NCBI RefSeq assembly: GCF_000473085.1
Contig: NZ_AXBA01000006.1
Coordinates: forward strand, 124,001 to 188,000
Source: Azorhizobium doebereinerae UFLA1-100
Lineage (GTDB): Bacteria > Pseudomonadota > Alphaproteobacteria > Rhizobiales > Xanthobacteraceae
Direction of reading: 5' to 3'
DNA: 64,000 nt
The position numbers and the translations under genes are program-made. The notes under the pieces were generated by a model. That model made no database searches, was not told the DNA's origin, and worked only from the letters and a program-made list of their open reading frames with translations. Below are positions 14,078-15,838 of this stretch, piece after piece (position 1 is the first letter of the stretch; each line of letters opens with the position of its first letter).

Positions 14078-15442
14078 TTATTCGACCTCGCTCTCCATCG
14101 GGCCGGCGGCGATGAGGCGATGCAGTGTCAGCAGCGCCTCCTTGAGCACCGCATGGGAGGGGGGCGAGAGGGCGAGGCGCACCGCATTGGGGGCATGGCT
14201 CGGGGCGACGCAGAAGGCCGAGGCCGGGGTGATGGCGATGCCCCGGCGGGCGGCGGCCGCCGCGAAGGCGTCGGCGCGCCAGCTGTCCGGCAGCTCCAGC
14301 CAGGCATGGTAGGAGCGCGGGTCGGTCTTCAGCATCGCGCCGTCGAACACCTCGCGCAGGATGGCCTGGCGCTCCCGCGCATCCGCCTGCTTGGCGGTGG
14401 TGAGGCGGCCGGCGATGCCGTCGGTCATGATCTGCAAGGCGGCGGCGAGCGGCAGGCCGGTGGCCGCCCAGGCGCCGGCGCGCACCGCCGCCACCATGCG
14501 CTCGGCCCAGGCGGCGGGGCCGGCGACGAGGCCGATGGTCAGGCCCGGCGCCACCCGCTTCGACAGGCTGTCCACCAGCAGCGTATGGGCCGGCGCCAGC
14601 GCCGCCAGCGGCTCCTCCTCGGCGAGGAAGCCGTAGATCACGTCCTCCACCGCCATCAGTTCCTCGCCCTTGAGGACGGCGGCGATCTCGGCCCGGCGGC
14701 GGGCATCCATGGACAGGCCGAGCGGATTGTGCAGCTGCGGCTGGAGATAGACCCCGCGCAACGGCGCGGCGCGATGGGCTTTCAAGAGCGCGTCGGGGCG
14801 CAGGCCGTGGACGTCCAGGGGCAGGGGCACCAGGGTGATGCCGAGCCGGGCGGCGATCCATTTCACCGCCGGATAGGTCAGCGCCTCCACCGCGATCCGC
14901 TCGCCGGGCGGGGCGAGGGCGGCGAAGGCGGCGGCGATGGCCTGCCGGCCGTTGGCGGTGAAGACGAGGCCGGCCGGGTCCGGCCGCCAGCCGGCCCGGG
15001 CGAGGAAATCGGCGGTGATGCCCCGCGCCTCGCGGGTGGCGGCGGCGCTGGTGGGGCGGAAGGCCGACGCCAGGGCACCGGAGCGCATCAGCCGGCTAAG
15101 GACCTGCGCCAATTCGGCATCCTGGCCGGGCAGGATGGGGAAGTTGAGCTGCAGGTCCACCGGCGCCTGCACCGGCTCGCCGAGCGCCCCGCTCGCCGGC
15201 GCCTCTCCGGTGCGCACATAGCTGCCCCGCCCGACCTCGCCGGCGATGAGCCCGCGCCGGGTCAGCTCGGCATAGACGCGGCTGGCGGTGGAGGCGGCGA
15301 TGCGGTGCTGATAGGCGAACTCCCGCTGCGCCGGCAGGCGGGTGCCGGCGGGCAGGCGGCCGGAGGCGATGTCGGCGGCGATGGCGTCGGCCAGGGCGCG
15401 GTAGTCGCCGCGGACGGGACTGAGGACGTCGGCATCCGACAT
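14078..15442 (-). CDS. MocR-type GntR/aminotransferase transcriptional regulator
   Basis: A 454-residue fusion of a GntR winged-helix domain (about 14-75; PAQREFAYQHRIAASTASRVYAEL in pieces) to a fold-type I PLP aminotransferase domain. The probable PLP lysine is in DSLSKRVAPG (about residue 292), and YLQPQLHNPLG and VEDVIYGFL are typical cofactor-pocket segments. MocR regulators such as GabR and PdxR bind direct and inverted repeats and sense PLP or amino compounds. The gene is divergent from a DUF1127 gene; the 54-base gap carries repeated ATTGC(T/A)CCGA sites. Its own ribosome-binding GGAG is inside one of these. Autoregulation is likely. Confidence 0.9.
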   Translation of the reverse strand: MSDADVLSPVRGDYRALADAIAADIASGRLPAGTRLPAQREFAYQHRIAASTASRVYAELTRRGLIAGEVGRGSYVRTGEAPASGALGEPVQAPVDLQLNFPILPGQDAELAQVLSRLMRSGALASAFRPTSAAATREARGITADFLARAGWRPDPAGLVFTANGRQAIAAAFAALAPPGERIAVEALTYPAVKWIAARLGITLVPLPLDVHGLRPDALLKAHRAAPLRGVYLQPQLHNPLGLSMDARRRAEIAAVLKGEELMAVEDVIYGFLAEEEPLAALAPAHTLLVDSLSKRVAPGLTIGLVAGPAAWAERMVAAVRAGAWAATGLPLAAALQIMTDGIAGRLTTAKQADARERQAILREVFDGAMLKTDPRSYHAWLELPDSWRADAFAAAAARRGIAITPASAFCVAPSHAPNAVRLALSPPSHAVLKEALLTLHRLIAAGPMESEVE

Positions 15443-15444
15443 TT

Positions 15445-15494
15445 ATTGCTCCGAGTACAATGTATTTATTGCACCGATATCATGTCGGAGCAAT
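15445..15494. promoter_or_regulatory. Probable MocR operator: two direct and one inverted 10-bp site
   Basis: ATTGCTCCGA at 15445-15454 is repeated as ATTGCACCGA at 15468-15477 (one mismatch, 23 bases start to start). It appears inverted and exact as TCGGAGCAAT at 15485-15494. Direct repeats plus an inverted copy are the known binding pattern of MocR/PdxR-type dimers. Both outer sites contain the GGAG that can act as ribosome-binding site of the flanking genes. Confidence 0.8.
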
Positions 15495-15544
15495 GAATGC
15501 GAGCCGTCGCTGGCAATTTCTGCCATCCGCCCCAGGAGGCCCCC

Positions 15545-15838
15545 ATGGCTCCGCGCGTCCGCCCGTCCTCCCCGCCCCCCGGCAGCGCCGGCCGGCCTGC
15601 CGCCCGTCTGGCCGCGTCCACCGCGCCGCGCGGCGCCATCGGCCAGGCGCCGCCCGTGCCGGGCGCGGCGATGCCGGCGCCGGAGCGCTGGTCGCTCTAT
15701 CGGACGCTGTGCCTGTGGATCTGGCGGGCGCAGTCGCGCCGGGCGCTGGCGGAGCTCGATGCCGACCGGCTGCGGGACATCGGCGTTCATCCGCGTGTGG
15801 CGCGGCGCGAGGCGGAAAAGCCGTTCTGGCGGGCGTGA
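15545..15838 (+). CDS. DUF1127-domain small protein
   Basis: A 97-residue protein. The last about 45 residues form a DUF1127 domain (LAELDADRLRDIGVHP core) with basic Arg/Trp-rich flanks. DUF1127 proteins are small, often RNA-linked or phosphate/stress-related in alphaproteobacteria. The N-terminal half is Pro/Ala/Arg-rich and unlike the family. ATG at 15545 has AGGAGG five bases upstream. An earlier in-frame ATG at 15497 with GGAG six bases upstream sits in the operator and would add 16 residues. Divergent from the MocR regulator, its likely controller. Confidence 0.8.
   Translation: MAPRVRPSSPPPGSAGRPAARLAASTAPRGAIGQAPPVPGAAMPAPERWSLYRTLCLWIWRAQSRRALAELDADRLRDIGVHPRVARREAEKPFWRA

Follow-up and report, generated by a model that had tools for sequence, protein, structure and literature searches.

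A divergent mocR–DUF1127 pair encloses a cluster of repeats

The window, by which we mean the whole 64,000-nucleotide stretch of Azorhizobium doebereinerae DNA that was analyzed, contains a gene for a MocR-subfamily regulator on the minus strand and, divergent from it, a gene for a small DUF1127 protein on the plus strand. The two start codons lie 54 bp apart if the DUF1127 gene begins at the ATG at 15497 and 102 bp apart if it begins at 15545. The features of this region are as follows:

14078–15442, minus strand: MocR-subfamily regulator gene, 454 aa, ATG at 15442
15445–15461, minus strand: box 3, an imperfect palindrome of 17 bp that reads ATTGTACTCGGAGCAAT on the MocR strand and stops 2 nt short of the MocR ATG
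15468–15476, minus strand: box 2, CGGTGCAAT, a direct repeat 23 bp upstream of box 3
15486–15494, plus strand: box 1, CGGAGCAAT, the mirror copy, in the opposite orientation to the other two boxes
15491–15502, plus strand: invariant tail CAATGAATGCGA, overlapping the mirror copy and the ATG, with 12 consecutive invariant columns in the four closest loci
15534–15539, plus strand: AGGAGG, the likely Shine–Dalgarno sequence of the DUF1127 gene
15545–15838, plus strand: gene for the small DUF1127 (YjiS-like) protein, with 15545 favored over 15497 as its start

The regulator has the two domains of its subfamily: an N-terminal winged helix-turn-helix (PF00392, GntR; 37.8 bits, cut-off 27) and a C-terminal aminotransferase-like domain (PF00155, Aminotran_1_2; 71.1 bits, cut-off 19.7). 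Its SLSKRVAPG segment aligns with SFSKSIAPG of E. coli YjiR, and we take the lysine in both to be the one that binds PLP. Among NCBIfam models, EhuR scores best at 334.6 bits, which is below its cut-off of 480 and leads us to reject membership in the EnuR/EhuR/EutR group; PdxR membership was rejected on the same grounds (134.7 bits, cut-off 320). A search of solved structures returned matches to aminotransferases or unnamed proteins only, with E values up to 1e-8. The divergent protein is a marginal match to PF06568 (25.0 bits when read from 15497, cut-off 23.3; 26.3 bits in the genome search), a family that we take to be the DUF1127/YjiS group denoted COG5457.

The first-pass annotation had described an imperfect inverted repeat on both strands, with a direct repeat of the same half-sites near 15468. 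Both repeats are real: the inverted repeat has 15-nt arms (15440–15454 and 15485–15499) that are 93% complementary, and the direct repeat spans 14 nt (15441–15454 and 15464–15477) with 93% identity. The minus-strand copy adjoins the MocR ATG at 15442, while the plus-strand copy leads into the ATG at 15497, which is in frame with an open reading frame at 15497–15838, again as described. What that description lacked is that the MocR-proximal copy is one half of the 17-bp palindrome at 15445–15461 and that the block conserved in the four closest loci reaches 15502.

The pattern CGGWGCAATRA matches exactly at 15443–15453 (minus), 15466–15476 (minus), and 15486–15496 (plus), giving three copies within 54 bp; under the stricter CGGAGCAATRA, the middle copy carries one mismatch. 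In 300 first-order Markov windows, the mean was 0.07 exact copies per window, never with two inside 60 bp, and no cluster of three arose in any of them even when one mismatch was allowed; a chance origin was rejected on this basis. Genome-wide (5.81 Mb), there are nine exact matches, three of which form the cluster at 15440–15499, and a control pattern gave none. When as many as two mismatches are allowed, the window shows no enrichment of the half-site (20 occurrences versus a mean of 27 expected), and thus what stands out is how tightly the near-exact copies cluster. A small terminator-like hairpin is also present on the plus strand at 15428–15440, within the first mocR codons and facing the DUF1127 gene; with 0.1 expected in shuffles, it is possibly a chance occurrence.

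Conservation of the boxes among MocR homologues

We aligned 68 MocR homologue loci from whole genomes (L012–L079, L012 being the window), oriented with mocR forward. Sixty-three of these were retained (42–100% identity, window included). The five that were dropped are L061, in which the alignment starts at residue 42 and the MocR N-terminus was not found, and L018–L021, which are 33–37% identical and have no box by pattern; the line at 42% identity was set after seeing where the box ends. Two further loci, L009 and L010, duplicate L013 and L014, respectively; L013 comes from a genome of the same genus as the window (G002). One locus of 32% identity (L011) was left outside the analysis. A single scan of genome contigs gave three loci. 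The family search matched 109 of 391 genomes and the order search 25 of 397, and the loci analyzed are part of these matched genomes, mostly the best-scoring, plus 12 stretches picked for diversity. The sample leans to one genus (g24), such that thinning the 63 proteins and four outgroups (67 in all) leaves 37 tree rows, of which 33 bear the box.

Box 3, with the consensus ATTGCnCTCGGnGCAAT, is found at the mocR start in all 63 retained homologues. It scores 15/15 in 48 loci, 14/15 in 12, and 13/15 in three, values that are partly built in because the consensus was derived from these same loci. The real test of box 3 is the comparison with control stretches, together with its fixed position. 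Among 1188 control stretches from those loci, one scored 13, five scored 12, and none scored higher, and the distance from the box to the mocR start codon is 0–2 nt in 55 of the 63 loci and −1 to 8 nt in all of them. Box 2 is found at exactly 23 bp from box 3 with at least 7 of 9 matches in 59/63 loci, a spacing of about 2.2 helical turns and hence not a whole number. Conservation of the half-sites in relatives, a search for which had been proposed in the first-pass annotation, is therefore borne out.

Box 1 follows a narrower distribution. It is exact in the window and L013, has one change in L014 and two in L015, and is degenerate outside these close relatives, where the MocR strand reads, for instance, AATGATCC or AATGCTCC. 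In these four closest loci, the conserved block takes in all three boxes plus a run of 12 invariant bases, which reads TCGCATTCATTG on the MocR strand, and then stops; from 15502 to 15545, no conserved stretch of coding type was found among the four. The invariant ATGAATGCGA of these loci may be promoter sequence, perhaps of the DUF1127 gene.

In the tree, the box-bearing regulators are split from the four more distant ones (33–37% identical, no match to the box pattern) by a branch with 100/99 support, with the caveat that these outgroup rows are long branches, flagged as such by the tree output itself. A set of 25 further loci (L113–L137) comprises one orthologue (L113), 20 loci scored as paralogues, and four that went unscored with the N-terminus unaligned. 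The 20 MocR-like paralogues, from six genomes, are without the box, their best forward scores being 8–11 out of 15; three score higher on the reverse strand (12 in L114, 11 in L117 and L134). Separately, L061 encodes a MocR homologue without the N-terminal part, and its best box-like stretch scores 11 while the DUF1127-like gene is kept, a possible case of regulator decay.

The first-pass proposal of a MocR-type operator, with half-sites in direct and inverted orientation in the gap of a divergent MocR/DUF1127 pair, is thus supported by conservation in relatives. We consider it likely that the region of about 15440–15502 is the operator of the adjacent MocR, through which the regulator would repress its own gene and control the divergent DUF1127 gene.

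The divergent partner and its exchange

A divergent DUF1127-like open reading frame is the partner of mocR in 57 of the 63 loci, as judged by an HMM that we built from the clear cases (49 ORFs chosen by motif, of which 47 are distinct); those cases consequently match by construction. Of five weaker DUF1127-like partners compared with Pfam, three reach the DUF1127 cut-off and two have no match. The remaining six loci face other genes; the two that were tested encode a LysE-type and a TauE-type transporter. Mapped on the tree, the DUF1127 label changes five times, at least three of the changes being forced by well-supported branches, which indicates that the partner has been exchanged more than once. 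Box 3 is kept in 6/6 of the loci whose partner is not DUF1127, and the site thus belongs to mocR.

This last result bears on whether the site serves mocR autoregulation only, the DUF1127 gene being a bystander with a promoter of its own. Such a role would account for a box that stays with mocR even where a LysE, TauE, or different gene takes the partner position, for the strongest box adjoining the MocR start, and for a promoter scan that recognized none for DUF1127. It fits poorly with the divergent DUF1127-like gene at 57/63 loci, with the invariant tail at 15491–15502 lying on the DUF1127 side, and with the genomic pairing of the two families: of six genomes examined for the two, five have a DUF1127 match next to the box-bearing MocR, and no DUF1127 match adjoins any of the 24 other MocR-like matches. 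COG5457 genes are, moreover, placed under MocR regulators in published regulons (PMC5320631). We therefore regard a site for mocR alone as unlikely.

Translation starts and the outer half-sites

The DUF1127 gene more likely starts at 15545 than at 15497. The distance from the ATG matching 15497 to the downstream start is 48 nt in the window, 50 nt in L013, 27 nt in L014, and 46 nt in L015; at 50 and 46 nt, that ATG is out of frame in L013 and L015, and across the four loci the intervening stretch drifts in length and frame like noncoding DNA. The protein read from 15545 begins MAPRVRP, compared with MAPLVRP, MTPRIRQ, and MSPQQSR in relatives, with M-[AST]-P in common. The anti-Shine–Dalgarno energies at the downstream start and at the mirror copy, respectively, are −10.3 and −6.4 in the window, −7.4 and −6.4 in L013, −5.9 and −1.9 in L014, and −7.6 and −4.1 in L015, making the downstream sequence the better one in 4/4 close loci. 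It is on this drift, the shared N-terminus, and these energies that we place the start at 15545. The start at 15497 was rejected, as its counterpart is out of frame in two of three close relatives and has the weaker anti-Shine–Dalgarno energy.

On the MocR side, the would-be Shine–Dalgarno letters read GGTG in 47 of the 63 loci, GGAG in 11, GGAT in two, GGTA in two, and AGGG in one. Mean anti-Shine–Dalgarno energies are −5.85 for the GGAG boxes and −5.4 for the GGTG boxes, against −5.04 for 500 random 20-mers from the window. With GGTG prevailing and energies near random, box 3 was rejected as a selected Shine–Dalgarno sequence. The box may be usable in translation, without sign of selection for that role, and the GGAG beside the MocR ATG appears to be mostly a by-product of CGG[A/T]GCAAT ending at the start codon. 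With the operator adjoining the start codon, the mocR leader is probably very short. By eye, the palindrome overlaps by its first three bases with a hexamer (TACATT, TATATT, or AACATT) that may be the mocR −10 element; the promoter scan found no sigma-70-like promoter on either strand, and promoter positions are accordingly guesses.

These data speak to a dual use of the outward copies, in which they would be selected both as operator and as Shine–Dalgarno sequence, coupling MocR binding to the translation start on both sides. Both copies in the window indeed read GGAG-N6-ATG, the GGAG before the MocR ATG is kept in three of the four closest loci, and the ATGAATG that follows the mirror copy is invariant in all four, with one of its ATGs in the DUF1127 frame in three: the window, L013 (the first ATG, 4 nt upstream), and L014 (the second), while neither is in frame in L015. 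Among the 57 DUF1127-type loci, however, an ATG within about 12 nt past the mirror position is absent from 46, out of frame in eight, and in frame in only three (the window, L013, and L014); the 11 loci with such an ATG include the four close ones. Together with the low energies of the mirror copy in L014 and L015, the better Shine–Dalgarno sequence downstream in every close locus (AGGAGG at 15534–15539 in the window), and the GGTG majority on the MocR side, this makes selection for dual use very unlikely. The first-pass view of each outer half-site as a selected ribosome-binding site, with the mirror copy serving DUF1127, consequently does not hold up.

It is extremely improbable that the inverted repeats work at the RNA level, as a structure or attenuator within the leader of DUF1127. 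Such leaders can be regulatory, one Sinorhizobium DUF1127 gene being subject to uORF-dependent attenuation (PMC12218461), and an upstream frame could begin at the 15493 and 15497 ATGs, but the conserved elements end at 15502 with no conservation in the leader beyond, the four close loci share no common short uORF, and the boxes precede mocR also where the partner is not DUF1127.

Proposed mechanism

Under the favored reading of a MocR operator, a MocR dimer would bind the two direct boxes (2 and 3) and, in some state, also the inverted box 1. Occupancy of box 3 would cover the stretch from the −10-like hexamer to the ATG and so repress mocR, while the complex, switched by a PLP-dependent ligand, would activate or repress the divergent DUF1127 promoter from the same site. 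For autorepression and control of DUF1127, we draw on the site anatomy and on published MocR behavior, in which the regulators are often divergent from positively regulated targets and are often auto-repressors (PMC5320631). The first-pass annotation had further suggested that the regulator may set the ratio of itself to the DUF1127 protein.

A more far-reaching version has this PLP-dependent MocR driving DUF1127 as its main or only target, such that an amine- or PLP-related signal tunes phosphate uptake, with self-repression through an operator fused to the start codon and an mRNA with a very short leader. The phosphate component derives from the report that DUF1127 proteins bind the sensor kinase PhoR and that Agrobacterium and E. 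coli take up more phosphate when these proteins are lost (PMC12501420). Taken as a whole, we consider this version doubtful.

The analysis yields a precise and conserved predicted operator for a regulator group whose ligand we did not find described. It also connects MocR regulators, in a way that can be tested, with the small DUF1127 proteins, whose part in phosphate control is just beginning to emerge. The gain is modest, since the kind of operator and the link between MocR and COG5457 are already in print.

Relation to described MocR systems

According to Suvorova and Rodionov (2016; PMC5320631), the commonest MocR motif consists of two direct boxes and one inverted box, a form given in their Table 2 for 103 regulogs and 245 regulons. 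Our site likewise has two direct boxes and one inverted box between mocR and the divergent gene, and it differs from the published form in its proximal box, which makes up one half of an overlapping palindrome adjoining the mocR start codon. The same paper describes COG5457 genes, written as "YjjS-related," as frequent in MocR regulons and as present in most Rhodobacterales EutR regulons. The arrangement is thus of a known kind, in both operator form and gene link (PMC5320631), and the supplementary tables of that paper may already list the regulog in full. Within the literature available to us, we found no paper naming MocR together with DUF1127; it is the name COG5457 that leads to PMC5320631.

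The EutR/EnuR/EhuR regulons share with this locus the closest NCBIfam model, a palindrome of the ATTG...CAAT type, and a COG5457 gene. They differ in the palindrome itself, ATTGC-N7-GCAAT here compared with the published ATTGT-N6-ACAAT (PMC8739950), and in the score, which falls below the EhuR cut-off. Here, the neighbors tested with Pfam are of LacI type, TetR type, and DUF1127, and no ectoine gene was found among the neighbors scanned. The E. coli yjiR–yjiS pair has the same layout of a MocR-type regulator divergent from a DUF1127 gene, whereas YjiR is only 25% identical to the MocR studied here, and the 400 bp around the yjiR–yjiS gap contain no comparable box, the best match being 11/15.

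Further matches to the boxes

A search of the window's own genome for the palindrome with up to two mismatches gave three matches, of which box 3 alone has at most one mismatch. The other two, with two mismatches each, sit inside long open frames, and a large regulon in this genome was rejected on this basis. The two direct boxes with up to two mismatches gave matches in 40 of 41 genomes; among the matches listed, those read outside mocR sites looked like chance.

Several additional elements were observed in individual genomes. A single-contig genome of the same genus (G001) contains a second perfect palindrome (L093 1501–1517, equivalent to G001:C1:1391548–1391564), about 90 bp upstream of an ORF that by eye resembles glutathione S-transferase and may be a second target. 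The DUF1127 coding region of the same genome contains another pair of boxes, which reads CTCGGTGCAATTTGCACATTGCTCCGAG on the MocR strand (G001:C1:5082038–5082054, in the upstream part of L015). A one-mismatch palindrome (L106 1501–1517, G025:C1:5039675–5039691) lies upstream of an ORF similar to the TauE-type partner of MocR in L067. Finally, in many g24 loci (L022, L029, L036, L041, and similar ones), the interval from box 1 to the DUF1127 gene contains an additional element resembling ATTGCTTGC...CTCGGTGCAATC, about 20–45 bp upstream of box 1 on the MocR strand, which looks like a second operator.
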